The notes beneath the pieces are model-generated. The model was not told the DNA's origin and made no database searches. It worked only from the letters and a program-made list of their open reading frames with translations. Shown in pieces: positions 14,336 through 34,641 of a stretch of DNA of 64,000 bases (within the stretch, counting starts at the first letter, position 1; each line of letters starts with the position of its first letter). Both the position numbers and the translations under genes were made by a program. Location: NCBI RefSeq assembly GCF_013912375.1, contig NZ_JACETV010000002.1, forward strand, positions 248,001 through 312,000, read 5' to 3'. This stretch comes from Emticicia sp. BO119 (GTDB taxonomy: Bacteria > Bacteroidota > Bacteroidia > Cytophagales > Spirosomataceae).

Positions 14336-15064
14336 CTATTGAATACCTCTCAGCATTTTAAAGAAAGATTCGGAATAAGTATCACTAATGGGTATAATTT
14401 GATCTCCTAACCAGATTCTGTTTTTTTCGATGTGATCTATTTTATCAATTGCAATCAGAAAAGAACGATGTACACGGGCAAAATCGGTTGATGGTAGTAA
14501 TTCTTCCAGTTTAGCGAAACTCAAAAGAGTCATAATCTTCTCTTCTGTGGTATGAATCCGCAGATAATCTTTCATTCCCTCTGCGAAAAGAATATCACGG
14601 ATCGCCACTTTACGGATGCGGTGACCAACTTTCAGAAAGATGTACTCCTGCTCGGTTTTTACTTCTGGTATTGTTGCGTTCTTTTCAGGTTGTTGTCTGG
14701 AGTTTTGTTCCTGATATAGACGCAGGACACCTTTATAGAAACGCTCAAACGAAAAGGGTTTTAACAGGTAATCTTTCACATCCAATTCAAAGGCTTTCAA
14801 GGCATATTGGTCATAGGCGGTGGTCAGGATAATCATGGGTTTTCGGTTCAGCATCTGCATGAAACTAAGCCCATCCAAGTCTGGCATGTTTATATCCAGA
14901 AATAGTATATCAGGTTGGTCTTTCTCCAGAGAACCTGCGGCTTCCAGAGGACTCATAAAGCTGCCTTTCAACTCCAGAAAAGAAACTTTAGAAATATACT
15001 CTTCCAGTATTTCCTGCGCCAGTGGTTCGTCATCAATGATATAGCAAGTGAGTTTATCCTTCAT
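14336..15064 (-). CDS. LytTR-family response regulator
   Basis: 242 residues from ATG at 15064 (MKDKLTCYIIDDEP); a longer frame starting 36 bases earlier lies inside the kinase gene and is rejected. The receiver carries Asp in DILFLDINMPDLDG and Lys in YLLKPFSF; the C-terminal LytTR DNA-binding domain spans ~140-240 (ILFAEGMKDYLRIHTTEEK, FARVHRSFLIAIDKID). Its start overlaps the kinase stop by 11 bases. The divergent ABC/peptidase genes are the obvious target. Confidence 0.93.
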   Translation of the reverse strand: MKDKLTCYIIDDEPLAQEILEEYISKVSFLELKGSFMSPLEAAGSLEKDQPDILFLDINMPDLDGLSFMQMLNRKPMIILTTAYDQYALKAFELDVKDYLLKPFSFERFYKGVLRLYQEQNSRQQPEKNATIPEVKTEQEYIFLKVGHRIRKVAIRDILFAEGMKDYLRIHTTEEKIMTLLSFAKLEELLPSTDFARVHRSFLIAIDKIDHIEKNRIWLGDQIIPISDTYSESFFKMLRGIQ

Positions 15065-16073
15065 GAGTTTCTGATTGAAGACTGTGAATATTGAGAACAA
15101 CAGAAAAGGTGTCCACCATATTGGTCACCTTTAGCGTGTGCTGCCCAGAGTACAATAAGGCCAATCTTTTCCTGACATTCGGCAGGCCTATGCCACCGGG
15201 GTCATTAAGGTTATGAGCCGGATGCTTATCTACAGGGTTCTGCACACTGAAAGTAAGGTTATTTTTCTGTACTTCCACGCTGACTTTTAAATCGCCGGGG
15301 TTGAGACGGGCTGGGCTATGCTTATAAGCATTCTCAAGAAGATGAATAAACAATAATGGAGCAATATGGCAGGCTGATGTATCTCCAACTATCTTTAAAT
15401 CTACCACAGGGCTTTGTTTGTAACGTAGTTGTTGCAAATTCATATAATCCTGCAAATAAGCTATTTCTTTTGCGATTGGTACAGTAGGGGCATTTGACTC
15501 GTAAATCATGTAGCGCATAAGAGAAGCCAGGTGCAAAACTGCTTCAGGAGCCGCTGGTGCCTGCTTATATACCAATGTATGAATATTATGAAGGGTATTG
15601 AATAGAAAATGTGGGTTAATCTGCGATTTGAGGTAATATAGTTCAGCCTCCACGGCCTGTTTCTCCAATTGCTCTTTCTTTATAGTATTCAATACCAGAT
15701 TTTCTGTGACCCTTGCCAGCCAGCTAAGTAACATAAAAATCGGGACAGCAGAGATCAGGAGCATAAAATAGGACTCAGATAAAAGATTCCAGGCATTGAG
15801 CTTTTCGTAACGAAAAAGCAAAAAAGGCACCGGCCCACTTAGCATGATTCCTGCCCGTATGAAAAAATAATCTCTCTTCTTTATTTTACCTGAATGGTAG
15901 GTCAGGAGAAAAAAATGGCCGTAAAAAACATATAAACATGTGAGAGTGAATCCTATAGATGTGGCAAACCATCTGGGATTTCCTTCACCTCCTAATTGCA
16001 AAGCTACCAGTAGACTGAACAACGTCCAGAGAACAATGTGGACTACCAAGAATATATTTTTAACTCTATTCAT
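15054..16073 (-). CDS. LytS-type sensor histidine kinase
   Basis: 339 residues from ATG at 16073 (a TTG precedes it). Four hydrophobic helices occupy the first ~130 residues, then the His_kinase family phosphoacceptor block YYLKSQINPHFLFNTLHNIH, the N-box LLFIHLLENAYKHSP and the G-box GGIGLPNVRKRLALLY. All catalytic elements are present. It forms a coupled pair with the LytTR regulator and is transcribed away from the ABC transporter genes across a 252-base intergenic region. Confidence 0.92.
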   Translation of the reverse strand: MNRVKNIFLVVHIVLWTLFSLLVALQLGGEGNPRWFATSIGFTLTCLYVFYGHFFLLTYHSGKIKKRDYFFIRAGIMLSGPVPFLLFRYEKLNAWNLLSESYFMLLISAVPIFMLLSWLARVTENLVLNTIKKEQLEKQAVEAELYYLKSQINPHFLFNTLHNIHTLVYKQAPAAPEAVLHLASLMRYMIYESNAPTVPIAKEIAYLQDYMNLQQLRYKQSPVVDLKIVGDTSACHIAPLLFIHLLENAYKHSPARLNPGDLKVSVEVQKNNLTFSVQNPVDKHPAHNLNDPGGIGLPNVRKRLALLYSGQHTLKVTNMVDTFSVVLNIHSLQSETHEG

Positions 16074-21347: not shown

Positions 21348-21547
21348 CTGTTAAATAAGCCTAATATACAATCATTTCTGAACTCTGTTTGCTTATTTCT
21401 AAAGCAAATTTCTTTCCTGAACCAAGTTATTTATAGGTTGCTTATTTGTAATCTCATAGAAAACACTTTCTCCTCCAAAAAACACAATTCGTTCTTAAAT
21501 TCTTGCAGCTCGTCAGAGTTGCCATTTCTTGTGTCTGTCTGCCGTAA

Positions 21548-21555
21548 TAGTTTTG
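21548..21555 (+). promoter_or_regulatory. -7 promoter box for the lipoprotein-cytochrome operon
   Basis: TAGTTTTG matches TAnnTTTG at all eight positions and lies 24 bases ahead of the lipoprotein ATG at 21580. No well-spaced TTG was found upstream. Confidence 0.45.
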
Positions 21556-21579: not shown

Positions 21580-22122
21580 ATGAAAAAGTTATTTGTAACA
21601 ATTACCTTATTGGTCTCTTCATTACTGATGGGCTGTGAGGTAAATGAAATTAAGGCCGAATATGGAAACGGCCCAAAGACAGAAGTACCTATGGGTATTC
21701 AGGGTAGCTGGATGTTCGGGCAATTTTCTATGACTGAGTATTGGAGCCAGGATCCGGCCACTTATACTGGTAATGCTTTACAACTGGCAATTGCTTTTAA
21801 GTTCAATGACAATGGCACCTATGAGCAATACTTCACATCAGGCTCCACCACCAGCACAGGCCAGACCTATCAGCAGTCGGTTACCAAAGGAACCATTGAA
21901 GTCAATGCTTCTGCCAGAACTATTACGACTCATGCTTACGCTTCCAAATATCGTCGCACGGTTAACGGGAAAGTCGTTGAAGACCGCCAGTTGAACGAAA
22001 ATGAAATAGCTAAAGATAATATCTACTATTATACTTTAGATACAGAAACCAATGGCACAAGAGTCATTAATCTTACTATTGAAGGTACTAATAGTACACT
22101 TCCGTTTCAAAAGAAATTTTAA
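21580..22122 (+). CDS. Hypothetical lipoprotein
   Basis: 180 residues from the ATG at 21580, where a lipoprotein signal peptide begins (KLFVTITLLVSSLLMGC; lipobox LMGC). The mature part has a lipocalin-like feel: GSWMFGQF, AIAFKFNDNGTYEQYF, GTIEVNASARTITTHAY, YYYTLDTE, with alternating beta-strands typical of small Bacteroidota lipocalin-like lipoproteins. No function assigned. It is 18 bases ahead of the cytochrome c gene and probably co-transcribed. Confidence 0.75.
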   Translation: MKKLFVTITLLVSSLLMGCEVNEIKAEYGNGPKTEVPMGIQGSWMFGQFSMTEYWSQDPATYTGNALQLAIAFKFNDNGTYEQYFTSGSTTSTGQTYQQSVTKGTIEVNASARTITTHAYASKYRRTVNGKVVEDRQLNENEIAKDNIYYYTLDTETNGTRVINLTIEGTNSTLPFQKKF

Positions 22123-22140
22123 TCTCAACTTTATACAATT

Positions 22141-23070
22141 ATGAAAATTCTCCTTAAAACTTTAAAAAGGATAGGTATTACTTTATTGGTGTTGGTTGTA
22201 GGGTTTGTAATAACCGTATCGCTGCGCCAGAATCTCACCTACGAAGCACCATATCCCGATATAAAAGCCAGTAAAGATAGTTCCGTTATAGCGCATGGCA
22301 AAGATCTGGCTTTAGGACCAGCTCATTGTGCTTCATGCCATAGCACGGCAAATGCTGATTCGTTGATTGCTTTAGGTCAGGAAGTTCCTCTAAGTGGGGG
22401 TTTTGAATTTAAAATACCTCCGGTGGCTACAATCTATTCACCAAATATTACATCTGATTCGACTCATGGTATTGGAAAGCGTACAGATGGAGAGATTGCA
22501 CGGGCACTACGATATGGTGTTCGTGCTGATGGAACGGCAATGTTTGACTTTATGCCTTTCCATAATGTATCAGATGAAGATTTAACAGCTATCGTTTCTT
22601 ATGTACGCTCGCTAAAACCTGTTAATAAGCCAAGAAAACAGCATGAAATTGAGCCAATGGGAAGAATAATAAAAGCCTTTATGGTTGAACCTGTCTGGCC
22701 AAGTGAAAAAATACAGAAGTCAGTAAAAGTGGATACTACTGCAGAATACGGTCGTTATTTGGCGCATAATGTAGCTAACTGTGTTGGTTGCCATACGCGC
22801 AGAGGGTTAGCTGGTGGCTACACTGGAGAACAGTTCGCTGGGGGAAATAAAATGGGAGAGCTTATTACTCCAAATATTACGCCCGATAGTTCAAGCCGGA
22901 TTTATGGATGGAGTGAAGAAGCTTTTATTGCCCGTTTAAAAGGAGGAAAAGTTATTCCGCAGAGTGAAATGCCATGGAATTCTTTCAAGAGAATGAATGA
23001 TAATCAGCTAAAAGCTATTTACAGATATTTGCAGACTGTAAAACCTGCAAAAATGCCTAAAGAAGGGTAA
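22141..23070 (+). CDS. Membrane-anchored dihaem cytochrome c
   Basis: 309 residues. An N-terminal membrane helix (IGITLLVLVVGFVITVSL) anchors two class I cytochrome c domains with haem sites CASCH (63-67) and CVGCH (214-218). Candidate Met axial ligands lie in MFDFMPFH and SEMPWNS. Diheme proteins of this type carry electrons from periplasmic dehydrogenases to terminal oxidases. No dehydrogenase lies next to it. Followed by a strong terminator. Confidence 0.92.
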   Translation: MKILLKTLKRIGITLLVLVVGFVITVSLRQNLTYEAPYPDIKASKDSSVIAHGKDLALGPAHCASCHSTANADSLIALGQEVPLSGGFEFKIPPVATIYSPNITSDSTHGIGKRTDGEIARALRYGVRADGTAMFDFMPFHNVSDEDLTAIVSYVRSLKPVNKPRKQHEIEPMGRIIKAFMVEPVWPSEKIQKSVKVDTTAEYGRYLAHNVANCVGCHTRRGLAGGYTGEQFAGGNKMGELITPNITPDSSSRIYGWSEEAFIARLKGGKVIPQSEMPWNSFKRMNDNQLKAIYRYLQTVKPAKMPKEG

Positions 23071-23225: not shown

Positions 23226-23993
23226 TTACTTACCCATCCACTTTTTAAAATCAGTTACTTTTTCTCGGCTGACGATAGCTTCTTTATCGACTGTAGGGTT
23301 AAGCAATAAAACTAATCGATTGCCAAAGTAATCTTCAATTTTAGTAATACACCCTACGGAAACATAAAATGCCCGGCTGATCCGGAAAAAGTGTTCAGGT
23401 TCAAGCATTTCTTCCAGTTCATCCATCGTATAATCTACAGCGTATCTTTTATTATCTGGTGTTTTAAAGAAGTTAAGGCGTCCGTCGCTATAGAAATAAC
23501 AAATATCCTTTACTTCAATGCTTACCAGTTTAGCACTGTACTTTACCAGAAAACGTTTACGGTACTCCTTAGGTTGCAGTTTTTGCTGCAACTCTTTTAC
23601 TATTTTTTCTAACGAATTATCTGTCGGTTTGTATGTAGACGATAACTTTTTGAATTTTTCTAAAGCTGCCTGTAACTCATCATTCTGTATAGGTTTCAGT
23701 AAATAATCAACACTATTCACTTTGAATGCTTTAAGGGCATATTCGTCATAAGATGTTGTAAAGATAACAGGACATTTAATGTCTATCAGATTAAATATCT
23801 CAAAGCTTTGTCCGTCTGCCAACTCGATATCCATTAAAATCAAGTCTGGTGAAGGATTAGCCGTAAGCCATTCCACACTCCCCTTGATACTATCAGCAAT
23901 CCCTACTACATTGGCAGTAGTATCTACAGTTGCAAGTGTTTTCTGGAGTTTTTTTACTGCCAGATCTTCGTCTTCAATAATTAAAATTTTCAT
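23226..23993 (-). CDS. LytTR-family response regulator
   Basis: 255 residues: a receiver with acidic IIEDEDLA, phosphorylation site Asp55 in LILMDIELADG and Lys in YLLKPIQN, then a LytTR DNA-binding domain (~150-250: ICYFYSDGRLNFFKTPDN, HFFRISRAFYVSVGCI). Last gene of the signalling locus, 116 bases downstream of the second kinase. A 21-bp-period direct repeat lies 102 bases before its ATG, suggesting that it has its own promoter and controls itself. Confidence 0.93.
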   Translation of the reverse strand: MKILIIEDEDLAVKKLQKTLATVDTTANVVGIADSIKGSVEWLTANPSPDLILMDIELADGQSFEIFNLIDIKCPVIFTTSYDEYALKAFKVNSVDYLLKPIQNDELQAALEKFKKLSSTYKPTDNSLEKIVKELQQKLQPKEYRKRFLVKYSAKLVSIEVKDICYFYSDGRLNFFKTPDNKRYAVDYTMDELEEMLEPEHFFRISRAFYVSVGCITKIEDYFGNRLVLLLNPTVDKEAIVSREKVTDFKKWMGK

Positions 23994-24094: not shown

Positions 24095-24123
24095 ATGAAT
24101 TGAGGATTTTTATGAATGAATTG
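24095..24123 (-). promoter_or_regulatory. Direct-repeat candidate LytTR site upstream of the regulator gene
   Basis: ATGAATTG at 24095-24102 and again at 24116-24123, 13-base spacer starting AGGA. The same arrangement occurs at 29411 and 34611. It overlaps the 3' end of the upstream kinase gene and lies 102 bases from the regulator ATG. LytTR regulators are known to bind paired direct repeats about two helical turns apart; the assignment here is inferred. Confidence 0.6.
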
Positions 24124-25162
24124 TATGAGACTTCCATATCAGTGGTAGCACTACTGTAAAATTTTTATTATCAGACAGAATCTGAAATCCAGGTTGATTT
24201 AAAAGATTGTATTTGTTTCTGATATTTTCGAGTCCTACGCCATTACTTGAAACTTTGACAGTTCGATGTTGAATATTATTGTTCACCACAAGTTGCTTAC
24301 CTCTTGTAGAAAAAATATCAATGACTAAGGGCTTGTTTTTAGACAGGGAATTATGTTTTACTACGTTCTCGACTAAAAGCTGTAAGGTAAGCGAAGGTAT
24401 CAGATAGCTATAGTATTGCCTGTCTATCTGTAGATTCATTTTTACGGCTTCGCCATGTCGGGTTTGTAATAGACGGAAGTATGAATGAATAAATTTGACT
24501 TCATTTTCGACAGTACTCATACCTTCTTCGTTGTTTCTGAGCAAATATCGGTAAACTTTACTGAGTTCATCAAGAAACTGGCCGGCTCGCTGTTTATCTA
24601 CTGTAATTAATGATGAAAGTGTATTGAAGCAATTAAACAGGAAATGAGGATTCACCTGGCTTTTGAGTGTATCAAACTCCTGATTAATAGCCAGTTGTCG
24701 GAGAGTCTCTTTTTCAATAGCGGTTTCTTTTAATCTTGACAGAATAAAATCAGCCTCAAACAGGGTTTCGAAAGTAAGATAGATAAAAAAAACACAGGCA
24801 AAGCATTTCCAGAAATGAGCAATTTCATAATCATAATCAAAAAGATGAAAGTAGCCGTAAAGTGTGATTGGGAGAAAAGTGGCAACTAAACAAATTATTA
24901 ACAATGAGATAAATTTTCTTAAAATTCGTTCAAAGCTTTGTTGTACTTGCGGATAAATTCTTTCGAGATACTGATTATAACGTAAACGTATCAACCAGAC
25001 AATAAAGCCTAAAACGAAAACCAGAGGAAAAGAATACAGCCATAAGCGAGAGTCATACCAGATAGAGTTTTCAAACATAAACAAATGAGCCACAACCACA
25101 ATAAATGGCATTGAAAACAGAAAACTGAAAAGTTCAAGTTTGGGTATTGATTTAAAGTTCAT
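24110..25162 (-). CDS. LytS-type histidine kinase (catalytically intact member of a tandem pair)
   Basis: 350 residues: four membrane helices in the first ~145 residues, then the phosphoacceptor block FDTLKSQVNPHFLFNCFNTL, N-box LLVENVVKHNSL and G-box SNGVGLENIRNKYNLL. The ATP-binding motifs look complete. The gene overlaps the upstream kinase by 11 bases and is a diverged paralogue of it in length and topology. It probably phosphorylates the downstream LytTR regulator. Confidence 0.9.
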   Translation of the reverse strand: MNFKSIPKLELFSFLFSMPFIVVVAHLFMFENSIWYDSRLWLYSFPLVFVLGFIVWLIRLRYNQYLERIYPQVQQSFERILRKFISLLIICLVATFLPITLYGYFHLFDYDYEIAHFWKCFACVFFIYLTFETLFEADFILSRLKETAIEKETLRQLAINQEFDTLKSQVNPHFLFNCFNTLSSLITVDKQRAGQFLDELSKVYRYLLRNNEEGMSTVENEVKFIHSYFRLLQTRHGEAVKMNLQIDRQYYSYLIPSLTLQLLVENVVKHNSLSKNKPLVIDIFSTRGKQLVVNNNIQHRTVKVSSNGVGLENIRNKYNLLNQPGFQILSDNKNFTVVLPLIWKSHTIHS

Positions 25163-26222
25163 CTGGCACCTCCTTCTCTTTCAATATTAATGGTATGGTG
25201 ATACTCCGGCAGGTAATATTCTGCTCGTTCACTAAAACATTCTTTCCTAATAATTGATATTTTTTAACGAGGTGATCTAAGCCTGACTCAAAATCTATCG
25301 CTTCTGTAATAGACTTAGGATTTACTGTGTTTCTGAATAGTAAATTATCTGTATCATCTGAACGAATAGCTATTTTCAGTGGATTGGCTTTGCTCATGAT
25401 ATTTTGTGAAAAGGCATTCTCAATCAATACCTGTAGAGTAAGTGGTGCTATCAGGTTAGCCTTTGAATGATCTGCTATATCAATTTTTAATTGCAGGCTA
25501 TCACCATAACGTGCTTTCAGAATATGCGTATAAGATCTGATAAATTTTAGTTCTGTTTCGAGTGTAACCATCGGATCTTCGTCATTTCGGAGCATATAGC
25601 GATAGACTTTGGTCATTTCGTTCAGGAATGTCTCAGCCTCGTTCTCATCTTCCTGAATCAGACTGGATAACGAATTAAGGCTATTGAATAAAAAATGTGG
25701 GTTTACCTGACTCTTCAATCCATTTAACTGGCTTTTTTTATAAGCGATACTCAGCTTTTCATTTTCTTCTTTGCTCTTTTTCCATTCGTTATATTGTACA
25801 ATACCTTCCATCAGAAAGGTTATAAAAATATTAAGAAGTGCCAATGATACGTAGTTCCAGGCCAAATCAGTTTCAACAAAATGATAATTGAGAAAACTGA
25901 ACCAATCTTCCAGCTTATTTAAGTACAGATATAGAAAAAGAAAAGTCAATAATAAAAAACAAGTAATGCTAAGTGAAAGGCGCATAGAAATTTGCCGCTC
26001 ATTTGGGAACCGTTTTTTGACTTGCACTGCTATTGCCCCGCAAAAAATAAAATAGGCTCCGAACGCGAATAGTGTGCTGATACTTAGCACCAGAAAATTA
26101 AAGGTACTGGCAAAGTATTGCCGGGGGAAATTGTAATAATTGAATGTAAATGCAAATACTGGTGTAACTATTGCCATCACCAGATTATCTTTGCCATTAT
26201 ATGCAGGTAGTTTGACTTTCAT
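25152..26222 (-). CDS. LytS-type histidine kinase with degraded ATP-binding motifs
   Basis: 356 residues with the same plan as the next kinase: four helices, then LNGLKSQVNPHFLFNSLNSL with the phosphoacceptor His. The N-box reads LIENAFSQNI (the usual Lys-His pair lost) and the G-box reads ESGLDHLVKKY (first Gly lost), so ATP use may be weak. It may act as the partner of a heterodimer, phosphorylated by its neighbour. Second gene of the operon, 74 bases after the propeller sensor. Confidence 0.87.
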   Translation of the reverse strand: MKVKLPAYNGKDNLVMAIVTPVFAFTFNYYNFPRQYFASTFNFLVLSISTLFAFGAYFIFCGAIAVQVKKRFPNERQISMRLSLSITCFLLLTFLFLYLYLNKLEDWFSFLNYHFVETDLAWNYVSLALLNIFITFLMEGIVQYNEWKKSKEENEKLSIAYKKSQLNGLKSQVNPHFLFNSLNSLSSLIQEDENEAETFLNEMTKVYRYMLRNDEDPMVTLETELKFIRSYTHILKARYGDSLQLKIDIADHSKANLIAPLTLQVLIENAFSQNIMSKANPLKIAIRSDDTDNLLFRNTVNPKSITEAIDFESGLDHLVKKYQLLGKNVLVNEQNITCRSITIPLILKEKEVPDEL

Positions 26223-26296
26223 TTTACAAAATTCCCAAAAGTTTTATTATGTAACTACAAGCTTCGGCTGAATCGAAAAAAGTCAGGATTGAAATG

Positions 26297-29200
26297 TTAC
26301 AATGCGATCTTAATATGAACTACCGAATTTTTATCCTGATGCCCGACATCAAGATGGGCTTTTAAGCTATCTAACTTCTGTATGAATTCTTTGCTTTCAA
26401 AAACATACTTAATAGATTGCCGATTTAAATTGCTGCTAAAAAAATCAATTGAAAAATCTAAAACAGATAGCATGACTTTTAATCTGATTTTATGGATTTG
26501 CGCCTCGGTATAAACCAGATACTGGATACATTCTTTAAATAATATAAGCAATTCATGGCGTACCTTCATATCCGGTTGTAATACCTTTACTTTTTCTTCT
26601 ACTTCAAGCGAAATATTTGTGTCATTTTCCAGATTAAGTCCCTCTATAAACTCTTGCAGACGCTCTACTACTTTTTGCATACTATCGTTAGCCGGGTTAA
26701 TACTCCATAGCATATCATCCATTGCCTCAATCATACTACCACTTTTGTCATGAATCTGCTCAATAAATTCCTTAGACTTTAAGGAATCTGTGTCGGTTTT
26801 TATTCTGGCAATTTCACTCAATACATTGATATTATTCAATACAGTACTGACATCCTGATAGAGGCTATCAGCAATGGTATTTCGCATTTTTACAAGGGCG
26901 TCTTTACGTTTCATTCGTTCATTATCTAACCAGAAAATGATGGAGGCGGCTAAAACCAGCATAGTTATATAGAACCACCACCTCTGATAGAATGGCGGGT
27001 ATATCTTAATTGTCAATTGGGTAGTTTGGTTAGATTCATTCCCTTCTTCATCTACAGTTTTGAGTATAAAATGATAACGCCCCGGTGGCAAATAGTTATA
27101 AATAGCTTCATTTTCAGCAATCCGCCAATCCTCATCAATTTCTTTAAGTTTGTATTTAATAATGTAGGCACTGTTATATAATAGTGTTGAAAAGCGAATC
27201 AGTATAGAGTTCTGGTTATGTTCGAGTTCAATTTCTTTTAATTGAAGCAGAGAATCAACGGGCAACGATTTATTCAGAACCTTAAAGTCTGTAATCTTGA
27301 CTTCAGGTGGTGTAGTATTAGAATGAATATGTGTCGGGTTAAATGCAACAAACTGATTGACTGTGCCAAAAAGAAGCCTTCCGTCGGGTAAATGGTAAGA
27401 GGCAGACTGTGTAAAGTTTTCATTATCGAGTCCATCAGTACGATTAAAAGAACTAAAAATAGTTTTAGGCAGATTCAATTTGTATAGACCATTTGTGCTT
27501 GTTATCCACAGGTATCCGTTTGCATCTTTCTCTATATTCGCATTAAAGCCTGAAATTCTGCCGGGTAGCCCTATAGTACGGGAACGATTCAGCATCATAT
27601 TGTGGCATACCACACGAGTAGCTGTAAGAATAACCATCAATGAATCATTGCATTGCAGGAAACCTGCAACTCCTCTTTCTGGTATTAGTTTATTCTCAAG
27701 AGTGAGCCGACGTAATATTTTACCAGTGGTCGGGTTAAACTCATATGCACCGTTTTCGGGGGTTGCTACCCATATATTTCCTTTAGAGTCGGGTAGGAGC
27801 TTATTAATAGAAAATTGCGGAATGGCATCAAAGGAGCTGATTCTGAAATTGTTATGTGGTGATATTCTGAAAATACCCTTAGTTTCTGTGCCTATCCAGA
27901 GCTCACCATTCTGATCTTCAGTAATATGCTTTACCGGTTCGTTTGTCAATTCATTCCAATGTAACCATTTGCAAGATTTTGTTTGCTGATTTAAGGCATA
28001 TATTCCCCCGTCTGTACCAATCCAGATTGTATTGCTGTCAGCTGAGGCACACATAGCCCACGCGTTAAAATTACCATTCCGGGGTAATCCCTTTATACTT
28101 AATGGCAGGGGTTTCAGATTTTTGTCATATTCAAAAAGCCCATCTCCCCAGGTGCCTACGAGCAATGTTTGTGCACGTGTTGGTATGAAAGCGTGTACGC
28201 GACCTGTACCACGAAGCCCAGACTTTGGGTTTAAATGCTGCACATTGGTAAAAAATTCCTGTGATGGATTAAAGCGGAAAACGCCATTGTTATTAGTAGT
28301 TACCCAAAGGTTATTTTCACGATCTTCATAAATAGTACGTACCCGCTCGTAGGCAATACTTTTTTCGCTTGTGAACCCATTCGGGATCAACTGAAATTGA
28401 TGTATATCTTCCTGAAATGCAGCTAAAACGAGTTGCCCTTTTACCCAGATAGTACCGTTAGATTGTTCGTTAAAACCAAAAATGTCATAATTCCCTTTTA
28501 AAACATTATTGAACGAATAATGTGTAAGAATAGGTTGTTGATGCGCTATATCATAACAGCCGATTGTTGGGGAAATACCTGGCCGGGTGTACCAGAAGCG
28601 TTTTTTGCTATCAAAAAACAATCGGTCATATATATCTTTCTGATTTAACTGGTCTATTAGAATTTCGTGATCAGGATTATGCTCCGGGTCATTCCAACGC
28701 TTTGTTTGCAGATTATAGACAGCCAACCCGCCATTGCTGAGGCTCACCCAATATTTGCTGGTATGTGGTTGATGAACAAAATCTACTATACCCCATTTAA
28801 CCTTAAAGGGTATAAAATTGTGCAGGTAAGAAAACTCATTGGCTTGAGGATTGTAAGTTGTCACCTCACTTCCACCCATCAGATAAAACAAATTACCCGA
28901 CTGGTCGGTTATAAGCCGTTTAATATAAGTATTGGGAGAAACACCTTTATGGAAATGCGTTTTTACTTCATTAAAGAGGAATTTTTTGGTGTCGAAAATG
29001 CCAACTTTCCCGCTTGCTAAAAGTACCCACAGGTTATTTTTTTTATCTATCAATAATTGCCAGACCGGATTAGAGGGCAATTGGCTATTAGTCATCTGAA
29101 AAGACTTATACTCTTTTCCATCAAAACGTTGAAGACCATTAGTTGAGCCTATCCATATAAATCCTTCATTGTCTTGAACGACAGTATTGGTCTGGTAGGT

Positions 29201-29308
29201 AAGAAGGCCGGAGGCCGGAGTATAGCGTGTAAAAGTATATTGCCCCTTTACAGCCACAGGCTGTAAAGAAAGAAGAACCAAGGCGAGAAATGTAAGCGTT
29301 TTCTTCAA
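26297..29308 (-). CDS. Two-component-type propeller/Y_Y_Y sensor with a degenerate kinase domain
   Basis: 1003 residues: signal peptide (TLTFLALVLLSLQPVAVKG), two-component regulator propeller repeats over ~30-680 (DNEGFIWIGSTNGLQRFDG, ENGELWIGTE, NGYLWITSTNGLYKL), a Y_Y_Y domain (~700-765), one membrane helix (WWFYITMLVLAASIIFWL), and a HisKA_3-like segment from ~808. There the LHDD-type phosphoacceptor block reads ADSLYQDVSTVLNNINVLSE, with Tyr817 where His is expected. The N-box region reads FKECIQYLVYTEAQ and no glycine boxes follow. It should therefore sense a ligand but not phosphorylate. The frame opens with TTG at 29308; no ATG is available. First gene of the operon. Confidence 0.88.
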   Translation of the reverse strand: MKKTLTFLALVLLSLQPVAVKGQYTFTRYTPASGLLTYQTNTVVQDNEGFIWIGSTNGLQRFDGKEYKSFQMTNSQLPSNPVWQLLIDKKNNLWVLLASGKVGIFDTKKFLFNEVKTHFHKGVSPNTYIKRLITDQSGNLFYLMGGSEVTTYNPQANEFSYLHNFIPFKVKWGIVDFVHQPHTSKYWVSLSNGGLAVYNLQTKRWNDPEHNPDHEILIDQLNQKDIYDRLFFDSKKRFWYTRPGISPTIGCYDIAHQQPILTHYSFNNVLKGNYDIFGFNEQSNGTIWVKGQLVLAAFQEDIHQFQLIPNGFTSEKSIAYERVRTIYEDRENNLWVTTNNNGVFRFNPSQEFFTNVQHLNPKSGLRGTGRVHAFIPTRAQTLLVGTWGDGLFEYDKNLKPLPLSIKGLPRNGNFNAWAMCASADSNTIWIGTDGGIYALNQQTKSCKWLHWNELTNEPVKHITEDQNGELWIGTETKGIFRISPHNNFRISSFDAIPQFSINKLLPDSKGNIWVATPENGAYEFNPTTGKILRRLTLENKLIPERGVAGFLQCNDSLMVILTATRVVCHNMMLNRSRTIGLPGRISGFNANIEKDANGYLWITSTNGLYKLNLPKTIFSSFNRTDGLDNENFTQSASYHLPDGRLLFGTVNQFVAFNPTHIHSNTTPPEVKITDFKVLNKSLPVDSLLQLKEIELEHNQNSILIRFSTLLYNSAYIIKYKLKEIDEDWRIAENEAIYNYLPPGRYHFILKTVDEEGNESNQTTQLTIKIYPPFYQRWWFYITMLVLAASIIFWLDNERMKRKDALVKMRNTIADSLYQDVSTVLNNINVLSEIARIKTDTDSLKSKEFIEQIHDKSGSMIEAMDDMLWSINPANDSMQKVVERLQEFIEGLNLENDTNISLEVEEKVKVLQPDMKVRHELLILFKECIQYLVYTEAQIHKIRLKVMLSVLDFSIDFFSSNLNRQSIKYVFESKEFIQKLDSLKAHLDVGHQDKNSVVHIKIAL

Positions 29309-29319
29309 TTGCTTTTTAG

Positions 29320-29327
29320 CAAAATTA
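29320..29327 (-). promoter_or_regulatory. -7 promoter box of the propeller-sensor operon
   Basis: TAATTTTG on the minus strand (8/8 match to TAnnTTTG) ends 11 bases before the TTG start codon, so the transcript would be nearly leaderless. The direct-repeat site at 29411 lies 84 bases upstream of it. Confidence 0.5.
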
Positions 29328-29410
29328 ACAATTATTCCTTTTCATCCGAAAATTAAATAATTGCACTGAAAATCAGACGCTTAGCTCAGATGGTATCAGG
29401 AAAAATGTGT

Positions 29411-29439
29411 ATGAATTGAGGAAAAACGTGTATGAATTG
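29411..29439 (-). promoter_or_regulatory. Direct-repeat candidate LytTR site upstream of the propeller sensor
   Basis: ATGAATTG at 29411-29418 and 29432-29439; the similarity extends outward, since GGAAAAAyGTGTATGAATTG occurs twice in tandem (29399-29418, 29420-29439). Spacer of 13 bases starting AGGA, as at 24095 and 34611. It lies 103 bases from the start codon, the same distance as at the regulator gene. Confidence 0.65.
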
Positions 29440-29524
29440 TTTTGAATAAAAATATATTCAGAGAAACACAAACTTGTGGTCCGGGGCTTCTCTGAATCTC
29501 TAAATTATGCATACATTGGCTGTA

Positions 29525-29794
29525 TTATTGACAGGCATTTTTAACAGCTTCTTCAAATTGTTTGCGTTCTTCGGCAGGTATCCCAGGACATTCGATTACT
29601 TTTCGTGCTGCATTTACTACGTCTCTGCATTTACTCAGATTAGTGGGGTCTTGCGCAAAGATTTCGTAGGCGGTCAGATAATCTTTTGTGGTTCTTTCAT
29701 AACAACTCAACGGTGCTGGCGTAGGGTCTTCTTTTGATTTACTACATGCAAACATAGTTGCAACAATGGTAACGGACATGAATAGCTTTTTCAT
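29525..29794 (-). CDS. Small hypothetical lipoprotein
   Basis: 89 residues: lipoprotein signal peptide KLFMSVTIVATMFAC with lipobox MFAC, a short linker rich in Pro/Asp/Thr, and a helical domain with four further Cys (SCYERTTKDYL, SKCRDVV, IECPGIP, NACQ) likely to form two disulfides. Family not recognised. It lies upstream of the propeller-sensor operon in the same direction but has a separate 216-base upstream region between them. Confidence 0.75.
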   Translation of the reverse strand: MKKLFMSVTIVATMFACSKSKEDPTPAPLSCYERTTKDYLTAYEIFAQDPTNLSKCRDVVNAARKVIECPGIPAEERKQFEEAVKNACQ

Positions 29795-30165
29795 TTTTGT
29801 ATATCAGTTTAAATGACTGGTTTATTTGTTTTGATGATTCAAAATTCAAACTTTTTTCCGGGCTGAGCTATCTGTTCCGGCTGTATTGAGATTTTCGATG
29901 TACCAATTGAAGTATTTATGGTTGTGTCCGTTTTAGTTAAATATATGTAATTATTGCAAAGGGGTAAATGCTGATTCTCTACGCTTTGGCATCAACAAAG
30001 ATTGCGGTATGTGTTTTTAATTGACTGATAATTAGCGGGTTCATTCAATTCAGCGGAGTCTTCCTCAATCCATTCAGGTCTTATGCCGGCTGAACTGAAA
30101 GACCTGTTTTCTTATGATGGGAATTCCGAATTTCGAATAAAATATTAACACAAAATCAAGAAACC
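29795..30165. other. Gene-free 371-base region with a terminator-like hairpin ahead of the cupins
   Basis: No coding frame is convincing. The notable structure is CAGGTCTT (30075-30082) paired with AAGACCTG (30099-30106) and followed by TTTTCTT, i.e. a plus-strand terminator-like hairpin 60 bases before the first cupin start. With no plus-strand gene upstream, it may be an attenuator in the cupin leader or the end of a small RNA. Confidence 0.4.
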
Positions 30166-30720
30166 ATGAAAAGAAAATTCATTAATCCTGAAATACAGGA
30201 TGAAGCTACATTTACAAAATTTGCATTTGAAACCGGCGGGGAGTTAACTGAAATAGATATTATATTACAAGTGGGGGGAGGGAATGACCTTCACTATCAT
30301 AAGACTTATTCGGAGACATTTACAGCCATCGAAGGAGAATTAGGCGTAAAAATTGGTAAGAAAAAGGAAATACTGATTTTAGAACCCGGCCAGTCATTTA
30401 CTGTACCAGCCAATATGCTTCATTGCTTTTTTAATCCTGGTCAAAAACAGATCAGATTCAAAGTCGAGATTGCTCCAGGACACGAGGGTTTTGAAAAAGC
30501 AATTATGATTGGTTATAGTCTGATTGAAAATGGACTTTTAAAAAAGAATTTTCTAAGGAATATGGCAGTGCTCCTTTGCATTAGCGATATGAATATTCCT
30601 GGAGTATTTTCTATTTTTGAGCCTGTGCTAAAGTGTATCGCTTATTTTTCGAAAGATTATGAAAAAGCCTTAGTGAAAAAATATTGCGCAGAAGCAACGA
30701 CCGTAGAAGAATTAGTATAA
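30166..30720 (+). CDS. Cupin-domain protein, first of a tandem pair
   Basis: 184 residues. Cupin motif 1 is LHYHKTYSETFTAIEGE (~44-60) with His, His and Glu ligands; motif 2 is PGQSFTVPANMLHCFFNPG (~76-94) with the fourth His. A C-terminal helical part (FEKAIMIGYSLIENGLL ... SIFEPVLKCIAYFSKDYE) is shared with the next gene. Likely metal-binding; reaction unknown. It has its own terminator at 30779. Confidence 0.82.
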   Translation: MKRKFINPEIQDEATFTKFAFETGGELTEIDIILQVGGGNDLHYHKTYSETFTAIEGELGVKIGKKKEILILEPGQSFTVPANMLHCFFNPGQKQIRFKVEIAPGHEGFEKAIMIGYSLIENGLLKKNFLRNMAVLLCISDMNIPGVFSIFEPVLKCIAYFSKDYEKALVKKYCAEATTVEELV

Positions 30721-30778
30721 TAATTAAACGCATTTATTAGCTTCACAGCAATAAATATAGATGATCCATAAGCCAGAG

Positions 30779-30811
30779 CCGTCTCAATATATTTTGAGAC
30801 GGTCTTTTTTT
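30779..30811 (+). terminator. Terminator between the tandem cupins
   Basis: CCGTCTCAA pairs with TTGAGACGG and is followed by TCTTTTTTT. Confidence 0.88.
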
Positions 30812-30873
30812 AAAGATTTTTGGGGTCTAAAAAGCCAAAATCTGATAAATTCTTAACATAAAAATTAAACAAG

Positions 30874-31422
30874 ATGAAAAGAAAATTTATTAATCCGGAA
30901 ATGCATAATGAAGCAACATTTATACAATTTGCCTGTGAATCTGAAGAAAAAATAACCATAATTGAGAATGTTTTACAAGCAGGAGGGGGTAACAGACTTC
31001 ACTACCACAAAACATATACAGAGATATTTACGGCTATTGAAGGAGAATTAGGTTTAATGGTTGGCAGAAAGAAGGAGATTCATATACTGCAACCCGGAGA
31101 ATCGTTTAGTTTACTTCCCGGAACACCCCACTGTTTTTTTAACCCTGGAGAAAAAGCTATTAAATTCAGGTCTGAAACTACACCCGGCCACGAAGGTTTT
31201 GAAAAGTCGATTATGATTGGATTTGGTCTTGCCGCAGATGGCCACTACAAGAAGAATTTTATAAGAAATACCTCAATCATTCTTTCAATCAGTGAGATGA
31301 GTTTACCAGGAATATTTTCGCTTTTCGAACCTGTCTGGAAATGTATTGCTTATTTTTCAAAAAATTATACAAAAACCTTAGAGAAAAAATATTGTACTAA
31401 AATGATGATGCAAATTAATTAG
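30874..31422 (+). CDS. Cupin-domain protein, second of a tandem pair
   Basis: 182 residues, closely similar to the preceding cupin along its full length (shared MKRKFINPE opening, LHYHKTYTEIFTAIEGE motif 1, PHCFFNPGEKAIKF motif 2, PGHEGFEKSIMIGF and CIAYFSKNY tail). All four metal ligands are kept. The two genes clearly arose by tandem duplication; each has an independent terminator. It converges on the ELWxTDGT protein gene. Confidence 0.82.
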   Translation: MKRKFINPEMHNEATFIQFACESEEKITIIENVLQAGGGNRLHYHKTYTEIFTAIEGELGLMVGRKKEIHILQPGESFSLLPGTPHCFFNPGEKAIKFRSETTPGHEGFEKSIMIGFGLAADGHYKKNFIRNTSIILSISEMSLPGIFSLFEPVWKCIAYFSKNYTKTLEKKYCTKMMMQIN

Positions 31423-31460
31423 CGTAATATAAAGCTTGTTTATTATTATTCTTAAAGCAA

Positions 31461-31494
31461 TAATGCCCTGTAGGTAACTACTCACAGGGCATTA
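31461..31494. terminator. Convergent hairpin between the cupin and surface-protein genes
   Basis: TAATGCCCTGT pairs with ACAGGGCATTA with a 12-base loop region. No long T-run on either side, so it probably acts as a bidirectional structure between converging transcripts. Confidence 0.6.
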
Positions 31495-31524
31495 ATTATG
31501 AGATGTAGTCTTCTTTTACAGGCA

Positions 31525-34500
31525 TTAATTGGCTGTTGTATCATATACACAGGCTTCTATTTTAGCTTCAAAAACCGAATTACTATCGGCTACAAAGCCA
31601 GGCGTCAGTTCAATAGATTTTCCTGCTATCATTGTATAAGACTGATTGCTTATAATTGTATTACTACTCTTGATGGTATCATAGGCTTGATTGTATAGAT
31701 AATGAATGTCTCCGGCCAATTCTGCGTTATTTTTACAATCTCTAAAAACATGAATCTGGTGTATGCCGTTTGGGAGTGTTATTCGCATAAATATGAGGCC
31801 ATTGTGCCCGACAAAATATTGTGGCAGTGAATGCCCATTAGGTACAATGTTAGCTAATTGTCTCTTAGATGTAGGAGTAGACTCGATTTTTGCAGGTTCT
31901 ACATCTGAACCACCATCAGCAAAATATACACCTCCTCTGGCAGCATAAGCATATATATTACTAATGTCAGAAATAGGAATGGTGCCTTCAGGTGTCAGAT
32001 CAGATTTAAATAATTGCCTGACATTATTTGTTGTAGTAGCAAGGAAATAGACGTTATTTTCAAATACAGCATATTTAAGTTTATTTGTATGATTTATAGG
32101 CGAACTTGAGCCCGTACCAGGATAAATATCCTTTATTAGATTAGTGCCGGCTTCTGTTCCGTCTGATTTCCAGAGTTCATATCCGTTTTGGGGGTCGTAA
32201 GCCTGAAAAACCAAGAGCGAATCTTTAAAATTTGTAAGGTAACTCGGGCAGGCTCCTGTTGTTCCAAAAGAATGTAAGAGCCTTGTATTGGCTTCAGTGC
32301 CATCCGTTACATATAATTTACACCCTCCGGCAGAACTAAACTTGGTATAATAATAACTATTGCCTACCACCTCTGATTCTGAATTATAGATATAGGTATT
32401 CTGCCCTGGTATAACATCTTTCACCAAAGTAATGTTTCCATTGCTATATTGAAATAGTTCATCGCCATACATGGTCGAATACCCGAGAAAACACAACTTG
32501 TTGTTTACAGTGCTTAACCCTCTGATAAAATAAGAATCATTAGGTCTGGTATTATCCACAACTCCTGCTTTTACAGTGCTTTCAGGACTTCCTCCGGTTT
32601 GCCATAATTCATTCACGACATTGAAATAAACCAATCCGTTGAATGATTCAAATTTATTAGTATAACCTGATTGCTTAAGCCTTGGGCTGGAGTAGAGTTC
32701 TACAGGTGCATTAACTCCATCAGTTACCCATACTCCTTCAAATGTCATAATATAAATCTGGTCATTAAACTCATATAAATCCCAGAATTTTGATGAGTAA
32801 TTATAATATTCAAAAGCGTCTTCTTCTGCAATGGTTGTCTCTGGCATTGGATAAGATGCAAGATTGGCAAATAAGCCTGTACCGCCCTGTTTACCATTTG
32901 TTCTCCAGAGTTCTAATCCGTTTTTCCCGTCATCAGCGGTAAAAAACAAACCATTTGAATTAGCCACAGTCTTCGAAAAATTGTTAGTATTACTGGTATA
33001 AGTAGCATCAATGTCTTTTACAAATGTGTTGGTCTCTCCATTTGATTTATAAAGCTCGTATCCGGTTGCCGGATTATAAGCAGAGAAGTAAAACCAATCA
33101 CCGGATTGCATTAAGGGATACACGTTGTCGATGTTCAGCGTAGGAGTAAGGTCTTTTACCTCAACCGCATCACTGCCATTGTCTGTTATATAACACTTAT
33201 GTTCTCCATTATTGCTATCGGTTATGAAAAACAATTTATTATTGAAAGCTCTGATATAGGAATAGTCTCCGTTCCATAAATTGATTATAGCTTTTGTTCC
33301 TTGCTGTGTCCCGTTTGAAGTCCAGAGTCTTATATTTGAAGATTGCTGCCCTGTAAAGAAATAAATATTTCCATTAGGTATGGGTATTAACTTTCTTTTT
33401 TCAGGATTAACAGGAAACGGGTCAATACTTGCCCCTGTTACATATACCAGATGTGCAATTTCTGAATCTACCGGCGACTCAATCACTCCCAAATCTGTTT
33501 GTCCGGTGCCGGTGTTATTAACTAAAAAGTATAATTTATTATTTGAAACGGTCAGATTTTCTGCTGTCCAGGAATAATAAGTAAAACTATTATTGACGCC
33601 TGTAGGCATAACATTATCTCCGAGATAGAAAAGGTTTCCGCTGTAAGTAGGATTAATTGTGAAATAAACTTTTCCGTCAAAGAGGGTCAAGTTACTGGGG
33701 TTTAAAAAACTATTACCAAATGAATTAGTGCTATTATAAGTGCCTCCTGTTTGTATCAGCACAGTACTATTCGCTACACTACCATCATTTAGATTCATAT
33801 AAGCGGCATAATTATTGACTACTATTTTACTGGTGCTAATAAAAGAACTGCTGTTACCTGGATTGATATCTTTTACTAATTGAGTTCCTGCGTCGGTGCC
33901 ATCAGTTATCCATAGCTCACGACCATGTGTTGCATCTATGGCTGAGAAAAGCACTTTGTCCTGAAATTGTTCAAAGTTTGCAGGCATTGAACCCGATGAA
34001 TTTGTATTAATATCCTTAACCAGTTTAGTGCCATCAGGTGTGCCATCAGTTACCCAGAGTTCTTCTCCAAGTGTACCATTGTTTGCACTAAAAAATGCTT
34101 TGAATACTCCACCAATAGAGACCACTTTAATATTTTTAATATCAGATTTAGTATTCGGATTAATATCTTTTAGTAAAAAAGTGCCTGATGGTGTTCCGTC
34201 TGTTACCCATAGTTCAAAGTTTAAGTTATTATGATAATCGGAGGCAAGCAGAAGAGCCTTGTTACCAAAAGGTATAATACATTCCTTACTCCGGATATCA
34301 GGTTGAGGAGTGACTCCCGTAGCAGTAATAATTTTGTAAGTTCCGCCATTTGTGCCGTCTGATTTCCAGAAGCCGTAATCGTTAGAGGTAGCCATATTTG
34401 CTACAAAATAATAGGCACCATTTATATCGACCCCATAACGTGGGTAAGAGCTTTGGGTAGATGATTTGATTTGAGTTAAAAGAGAATTCTGGCTATAACC

Positions 34501-34545
34501 CTTTGATATAAAAAAAGAAAAAACAATTACGAAAAGTGTTCTCAT
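31525..34545 (-). CDS. Large ELWxTDGT-repeat surface protein with C-terminal coathanger-type domain
   Basis: 1006 residues from the ATG at 34545, where the signal peptide starts (RTLFVIVFSFFISKGYS); an earlier in-frame start at 34572 falls inside the promoter. The body carries about ten ELWxxDGTxxGTxLVKDI-type repeats (ELWVTDGTPSGTFLLKDINP, ELWVTDGTPDGTKLVKDINT, ELWKSDGTEAGTNLIKDIYP), read as a beta-propeller-like fold. The end (YTMIAGKSIELTPGFVADSN, EAKIEAC) matches the three-coathanger-stack domain seen on Bacteroidota exported proteins. Probably cell-surface or secreted. It carries the third copy of the 21-bp-period repeat in its promoter. Confidence 0.85.
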   Translation of the reverse strand: MRTLFVIVFSFFISKGYSQNSLLTQIKSSTQSSYPRYGVDINGAYYFVANMATSNDYGFWKSDGTNGGTYKIITATGVTPQPDIRSKECIIPFGNKALLLASDYHNNLNFELWVTDGTPSGTFLLKDINPNTKSDIKNIKVVSIGGVFKAFFSANNGTLGEELWVTDGTPDGTKLVKDINTNSSGSMPANFEQFQDKVLFSAIDATHGRELWITDGTDAGTQLVKDINPGNSSSFISTSKIVVNNYAAYMNLNDGSVANSTVLIQTGGTYNSTNSFGNSFLNPSNLTLFDGKVYFTINPTYSGNLFYLGDNVMPTGVNNSFTYYSWTAENLTVSNNKLYFLVNNTGTGQTDLGVIESPVDSEIAHLVYVTGASIDPFPVNPEKRKLIPIPNGNIYFFTGQQSSNIRLWTSNGTQQGTKAIINLWNGDYSYIRAFNNKLFFITDSNNGEHKCYITDNGSDAVEVKDLTPTLNIDNVYPLMQSGDWFYFSAYNPATGYELYKSNGETNTFVKDIDATYTSNTNNFSKTVANSNGLFFTADDGKNGLELWRTNGKQGGTGLFANLASYPMPETTIAEEDAFEYYNYSSKFWDLYEFNDQIYIMTFEGVWVTDGVNAPVELYSSPRLKQSGYTNKFESFNGLVYFNVVNELWQTGGSPESTVKAGVVDNTRPNDSYFIRGLSTVNNKLCFLGYSTMYGDELFQYSNGNITLVKDVIPGQNTYIYNSESEVVGNSYYYTKFSSAGGCKLYVTDGTEANTRLLHSFGTTGACPSYLTNFKDSLLVFQAYDPQNGYELWKSDGTEAGTNLIKDIYPGTGSSSPINHTNKLKYAVFENNVYFLATTTNNVRQLFKSDLTPEGTIPISDISNIYAYAARGGVYFADGGSDVEPAKIESTPTSKRQLANIVPNGHSLPQYFVGHNGLIFMRITLPNGIHQIHVFRDCKNNAELAGDIHYLYNQAYDTIKSSNTIISNQSYTMIAGKSIELTPGFVADSNSVFEAKIEACVYDTTAN

Positions 34546-34569
34546 AGCTATATAATTTTGATTTTTGTT

Positions 34570-34577
34570 CAAAATTA
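34570..34577 (-). promoter_or_regulatory. -7 promoter box of the ELWxTDGT protein
   Basis: TAATTTTG on the minus strand (8/8), 24 bases before the ATG at 34545. The direct repeat lies 34 bases upstream. Confidence 0.5.
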
Positions 34578-34596
34578 TCGGCTTTCAAAACCGGAG

Positions 34597-34627
34597 AAAT
34601 ATCCTCGCGAATGAGTTGAGGATATTT
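34597..34627 (-). terminator. Hairpin at the end of the sugar operon
   Basis: AAATATCCTC (34597-34606) pairs with GAGGATATTT (34618-34627). On the minus strand it ends in TTTCTCC, a weak T tract. It may terminate the operon ending at 34693, but it shares bases with the 34611 direct repeat, so its role is ambiguous. Confidence 0.45.
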
Positions 34628-34641
34628 AGTTATGAGTTGAG
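34611..34641 (-). promoter_or_regulatory. Direct-repeat candidate LytTR site upstream of the ELWxTDGT protein
   Basis: ATGAGTTGAG at 34611-34620 and 34632-34641: 21-bp period, spacer again opening AGGA. It differs from the sites at 24095 and 29411 by one base in each half. It lies 66 bases before the ATG. Confidence 0.6.

Follow-up and report, generated by a model that had tools for sequence, protein, structure and literature searches.

A 21-bp direct repeat as the probable binding site of a LytTR response regulator in Emticicia sp. BO119

Introduction

How does a LytTR response regulator find its own promoters in a cell that holds many proteins of the same kind? The genome of Emticicia sp. 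BO119 (6,570,506 bases, 6.57 Mb) encodes 72 LytTR domains, so specificity is a real question at the locus described here. In published LytTR sites, 11-13 nt lie between repeats of 9-11 nt, and there is no common consensus (PMC4847170). A non-exhaustive search of the literature found no binding word for Bacteroidota LytTR response regulators with receiver domains; the exception among related systems is a set of membrane LRS-like Bacteroides operons with 11-11-11 repeats (PMC6193735).

The DNA analysed is a stretch of 64,000 nt (contig NZ_JACETV010000002.1, positions 248,001 to 312,000 of the forward strand), hereafter called the window. A sequence-only reading had noticed the pattern ATGARTTG-N13-ATGARTTG upstream of three minus-strand genes and had taken it for the LytTR site of a local regulon controlling itself and a surface protein. 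Genome-wide tests of this proposal relied on pattern searches and fetched stretches.

Results

Genes of the locus

The locus combines PF06580 histidine kinases with a receiver-LytTR regulator. Its genes, in window coordinates, are:

23226-23993, minus strand: LytTR response regulator, 255 aa, receiver and LytTR domains (Pfam PF00072, PF04397)
24110-25162, minus strand: HK1, LytS-type histidine kinase (PF06580), ATP-lobe motifs intact in the alignment
25152-26222, minus strand: HK2, LytS-type histidine kinase (PF06580), phospho-acceptor motif kept, ATP-lobe motifs degenerate in the alignment
26297-29308, minus strand: propeller sensor with Reg_prop and Y_Y_Y, membrane segment, HisKA_3-like helix and degenerate ATP lobe
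21580-22122, plus strand: small predicted lipoprotein, putative target of site S4; longest ORF starts at 21529; 85% ortholog in the sister species G007
22141-23070, plus strand: predicted membrane-anchored c-type cytochrome with two haem domains (PF00034, PF13442), in the same operon as the lipoprotein
30166-30720, plus strand: cupin 1 (PF07883), putative target of site S5
30874-31422, plus strand: cupin 2 (PF07883), downstream of cupin 1 and a candidate for co-transcription with it
31525-34545, minus strand: ELWxxDGT-repeat protein (NCBIfam TIGR04534, NF045639), putative target of site S3, reading frame open to 34572; C-terminal 3-coathanger stack domain

Asp55 and Lys100 of the regulator are invariant among its relatives. 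A sequence search of solved structures with this protein matched receiver domains only. In the alignment, HK1 retains all the motifs (H, N and G), and HK2 the H motif. The membrane segment and the HisKA_3 likeness of the propeller sensor were judged by eye. This sensor had been called a pseudokinase. Its ATP lobe is degenerate in most, indeed nearly all, relatives; the histidine is kept in G007 and most relatives, the change to Tyr (window 26297-29308) being seen in this strain alone. The situation is reversed in the Niastella soli propeller sensor (L127:11051-14113), where the ATP-lobe motifs are kept and His is replaced by Thr. A division of labour among the propeller protein, HK2 and HK1 is plausible from these motifs.

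Elsewhere in the window, some 8 kb away from this regulator, lies a second LytTR gene (14336-15100, minus strand), in whose vicinity no strong CAATTCAT site was seen.

Three exact repeats, all at the locus

The pattern ATGARTTG-N13-ATGARTTG occurs exactly where it had been described, at 24095-24123, 29411-29439 and 34611-34639. These are the only exact matches in the whole genome, a control scan with the reversed pattern yielding none. In the sense of the genes, the sites read CAAYTCAT-N13-CAAYTCAT:

S1, 24095-24123, minus strand: CAATTCAT-N13-CAATTCAT, upstream of the LytTR regulator gene; exact match, conserved in G007
S2, 29411-29439, minus strand: CAATTCAT-N13-CAATTCAT, upstream of the propeller-HK2-HK1 operon; exact match, conserved in G007
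S3, 34611-34639, minus strand: CAACTCAT-N13-CAACTCAT, upstream of the ELWxTDGT gene; exact match, kept in G007

Distances from site to start are 101 bases for the regulator (ATG 23993), 102 for the propeller protein (TTG 29308) and 65 for the likely ATG of the ELWxTDGT gene (34545), and fit those of the sequence-only reading. S1 is not wholly intergenic: it overlaps HK1 (24110-25162), the kinase gene upstream, by that gene's final 14 bases. S2 is an almost perfect 21-bp tandem, CAATTCATACACGTTTTTCCT CAATTCATACACATTTTTCCT. With one extra shared base the three sites become WCAAYTCAT-N12-TCAAYTCAT, which falls within the dimensions of LytTR sites given by PMC4847170 (repeats of 9-11 nt, separation of 11-13 nt). 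The earlier interpretation of the 21-bp repeat as a LytTR site thus agrees, in period and in half-site length, with published examples (PMC4847170, PMC6193735).

In this genome the spacer opens with AGGA at S1, S2 and S3, as had been noted; AGGA was rejected as part of the site on finding CGG (site 1) and AAGA (site 3) at that position in G007.

Looser or wider searches were of little use as evidence. Allowing three mismatches gave 466 matches genome-wide against 218 for the reversed control, an excess that was set aside: a 21-bp period is seven codons long, and the count is inflated by coding heptads (of the ELRTQSDEL type). When 291 genomes of the order were searched for the exact pattern, they gave about 0.2 matches per genome, most of them isolated or lying within AATTCAT tandem repeats, and the search was dropped as a test of tracking. 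Besides the genome under study (G000), only two of the 291 have three exact matches. In one of these, the three are on different contigs; in the other, two copies overlap and the third is on a separate contig.

Two further sites, S4 and S5

The following two sites, which deviate from the strict motif, had been overlooked:

S4, 21485-21513, plus strand: CAATTCGT-N13-CAGCTCGT, preceding the lipoprotein-cytochrome c operon; conserved in G007
S5, 30046-30073, plus strand: CAATTCAG-N12-CAATCCAT, period 20, upstream of cupin 1; conserved island in G007

The relaxed pattern CARYTCRT-N13-CARYTCRT has five exact matches in the genome, namely S1-S4 and one at C25:158990. The latter was rejected, since the sequence there looks like coding DNA and relatives conserve the spacer as well; such chance matches arise in coiled-coil genes because the period spans seven codons. 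The S5 pattern matches exactly once in this genome and once in G007, both times at S5. We hold S5 a little less firmly than S1-S4 because it was found with the motif already known and its pattern was written afterwards. A sixth candidate, preceding HK2 (26268-26296) and adjoining the stop codon of the propeller gene, has four mismatches and was rejected as too weak.

The cupins had been placed outside the regulon. This was not borne out, given that S5 precedes them and is conserved in G007. Taken with S4, the local regulon is supported as comprising at least five putative transcription units over about 13 kb, including the lipoprotein-cytochrome c and cupin genes.

Conservation in a sister species

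An orthologous locus was found in one genome of the genus, G007, whose regulator is 94% and whose ELWxxDGT protein is 76% identical to those of BO119. All five sites are present there. S1 and S2 are nearly unchanged in the promoter alignment, and S3, S4 and S5 stand out against diverged flanks: the S3 repeat is kept even though the upstream DNA and the upstream gene differ, and S5 forms an island of conservation whose upstream DNA has diverged. Orientation is constant, each of the ten sites in the two species pointing toward its gene.

The third base of S3 has changed alike in both half-sites (A to C; window 34611-34639 versus L091:2874-2902), from CAACTCAT/CAACTCAT to CACTTCAT/CACCTCAT in G007. 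The two half-sites look as if they were evolving together.

Position of the repeats relative to the promoter

Sequences downstream of 20 sites, drawn from BO119, G007 and orthologous loci, were scored for the Bacteroidota -7 box, TAnnTTTG (PMC9723704). The best mean offsets were 33 and 34 bases past the repeat, and a match of at least 5/6 at 32-35 bases was found at 8 of the 20 sites, against 0.86 expected. The box is clear at 33-34 in several orthologous sites, at S3 (TAATTTTG at 34570-34577, 33 bases downstream) and at S4 (TAGTTTTG at 21548-21555, 34 bases downstream). Offsets of 53-55 form a second peak, which corresponds to 33 plus a further repeat length and so fits sites with a third repeat. 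For S1 and S2 no clear box was seen at 33-34, the candidates there being at 35 or at about 53-56, and S5 was likewise not clear.

In published LytTR autoregulation, 9-12-9 direct repeats are placed some 10 bp above -35 (PMC6193735). With the -7 box at 33-34, the proximal half-site lies similarly about 10 bp above the -33 position, and activation is for this reason the favoured sign of control. The same regulator might instead repress or act both ways, its repeat blocking or replacing polymerase at some promoters (e.g., S1 and S2) and serving activation at others; the sign of regulation cannot be had from sequence alone, and neither S1 nor S2 has a canonical box at activator distance. We consider this unlikely, as S3, S4 and several orthologous sites carry the box at 33-34, the spacing of activating LytTR proteins (PMC6193735).

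The repeat in more distant relatives

Loci of relatives were fetched by the regulator protein, not by the motif, giving 11 loci with at least 62% regulator identity. Among pairs of near-CAAYTCAT half-sites in these loci, 10 had period 21 and 3 had period 20, whereas the 35 other periods tested yielded 8 altogether; some of the period-21 pairs fall inside genes and were counted as chance. This peak at 20-21 again lies within the range of LytTR sites. The word was found at 20-21-bp spacing in Niastella, Terrimonas, Chitinophaga (C. sedimenti) and Arenibacter. Intergenic pairs precede HK, RR and propeller genes and, in Arenibacter, a cytochrome c gene; the propeller gene is preceded by a repeat array in Niastella and by three repeats in Terrimonas. 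Gene order is also shared, HK2-HK1-RR with an adjacent propeller gene recurring in Niastella-like genomes, Terrimonas, Niabella, Flaviaesturariibacter, Chitinophaga sedimenti and Arenibacter, with cytochrome c adjoining the module in several relatives.

Eight further homologs of about 60-71% identity showed no spacing peak in 1.5-kb flanks, and wider stretches held a few CAATTC-type pairs; in several homologs of about 60%, CAATTCAT pairs are weak or absent close to the regulator. The site tracks the LytTR regulator across species, more weakly in some homologs of about 60%. The idea of a local, self-controlling regulon is supported by conservation of the word in G007 and by its following orthologous regulators into other families; the list of targets that came with it was too short.

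Period-21 repeats at other LytTR loci

Intergenic DNA in 60 stretches of the BO119 genome, chosen to cover LytTR loci, was scanned for repeated 10-mers (at most one mismatch). Matches at period 21 numbered 23. The remaining periods between 10 and 44 had a mean of 5.06 (sd 1.98) and never more than 9; in 20 random stretches the figures were 3 and 2.2. S1-S3 account for 3 of the 23, and about five are expected by chance. The words at other loci differ (for example ACTTTGTSAA, TTATCSAACG, TAAGTGGC, GTTGATAA, TTTGCAGAT), and many of these repeats stand in front of LytTR or kinase genes. It looks, from these repeats, as though our locus is a single case of a more general pattern within the BO119 genome.

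Private period-21 words before LytTR or kinase genes were seen, for instance, at L214, L221, L222, L247, L252, L256 and L284; at L284, similar words occur at a LytS kinase gene and at an outer-membrane beta-barrel gene. L214 (G000:C4:102000-110500) and L215 (G000:C10:1-5000) carry near-identical LytTR genes with the same upstream repeat, and this pair, on a large and a very short contig, represents a recent duplication or an assembly duplicate.

Paralogous systems in three genomes of the genus (regulator about 53% identical) use close variants of the word, including triple repeats. In the paralogous loci L092 (G000:C12:1086500-1100500), L094 and L095, 21-bp repeats resembling CAATTCAT stand in arrays of two or three before the genes of two LytS kinases and of a ZU5-like lipoprotein, and before a divergently transcribed operon that encodes an S10 peptidase together with a beta-helix lipoprotein and a carboxypeptidase-regulatory-domain lipoprotein. 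One of the other LytTR proteins among the 72, such as the paralog at C12:1088229 with its very similar word, could read S1-S5 alone or in cross-talk with the local regulator, considering that the paralogous locus has such repeats before its own kinases and targets and that the two regulators are about 53% identical. With strict sites confined to the present locus and following the orthologs of its own regulator into other families, we regard this as quite improbable. That the repeats are unrelated to the regulator, being chance, mobile-element debris or the operator of another transcription factor, is very hard to believe: AT-rich AATTCAT repeats do occur in many genomes of the order, and coiled-coil coding DNA does produce 21-bp periodicity, but they leave unexplained the 20-21 peak in independently fetched orthologs, the conservation of sites against diverged flanks, the uniform orientation of all ten sites and the period-21 enrichment beside LytTR genes in general.

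Discussion

The repeats are most likely binding sites of a LytTR response regulator, judging from their geometry and distribution, and the comparative support is unusually strong. As a whole explanation, we find it very probable that the regulator encoded at 23226-23993 binds them and activates the regulator gene, the sensor and kinase genes and the local outputs. The sites, their geometry, their conservation, their co-occurrence with the regulator clade and the -7 spacing are read directly from the DNA; that the regulator binds and is phosphorylated, that it activates and does not repress, and what HK1, HK2 and the propeller protein each do, we infer. A signal sensed through the propeller protein and the LytS-type pair HK1/HK2 would lead to phosphorylation of Asp55. 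The CAATTCAT half-sites, separated by two helical turns and lying on the same side of the DNA, would then each receive one regulator molecule. With a proximal half-site that ends 33-34 bases upstream of the -7 box, the bound pair would sit just upstream of the -33 region and might aid RNA polymerase at promoters with poor -33 elements. Levels of regulator, propeller protein and kinases would rise by positive feedback, along with those of the local outputs: the lipoprotein and cytochrome c, the cupins and the ELWxxDGT envelope protein. HK2, HK1 and RR could be co-transcribed from S2, S1 then being a secondary promoter.

By its architecture and site geometry, the system is of a known class, the LytS/LytTR two-component systems. 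It resembles YpdA/YpdB and BtsS/BtsR of E. coli in joining a LytS-type kinase to a receiver-LytTR regulator and in the use of direct repeats, and the YpdB half-site GGCATTTCAT (PMC4847170) is similar to CAATTCAT. It differs from them in having two LytS-type kinases and a periplasmic propeller protein, a promoter of the Bacteroidota type (-7 TAnnTTTG), and putative targets among envelope and electron-transfer genes rather than pyruvate transporters. The LRS of Streptococcus mutans (HdrRM, BrsRM) likewise have 9-12-9 repeats directly upstream of the promoter of their own operon, system-specific words and positive feedback (PMC6193735). In an LRS, however, the partner of the LytTR regulator is a membrane inhibitor, and membership in the strict sense was rejected here, where the regulator has a receiver domain (PF00072) and its partners are kinases. 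AgrA of Staphylococcus aureus offers a further parallel, its LytTR dimer occupying two direct repeats ahead of promoters under its own control (PMC4227749), with a different recognition word, sensor and targets. The Reg_prop/Y_Y_Y sensors of Bacteroidota hybrid two-component systems share the periplasmic architecture of propeller and Y_Y_Y; unlike them, the propeller protein here adjoins LytS kinases, is not fused to an AraC-type regulator and has an ATP lobe that is degenerate in most relatives.

A broader proposal, which we put forward tentatively as a possibility somewhat short of even, is that in Bacteroidota genomes with dozens of LytTR proteins each system would have its own near-orthogonal 21-bp word before its regulator or kinase genes, such that the wiring may be read from DNA alone; in the present case, the propeller protein, HK2 and HK1, partly degenerate, would integrate the signal while sharing catalytic functions. 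A single Bacteroidota genome can contain about 70 LytTR regulators, and for one of them this locus supplies a word, a promoter geometry and a list of candidate targets. The period-21 scan suggests that targets may be assignable for many other LytTR systems. The locus also brings to light an uncharacterised propeller-kinase module with putative links to cytochrome c and envelope outputs, and it helps to decode how dozens of similar LytTR regulators may stay separate within one cell.
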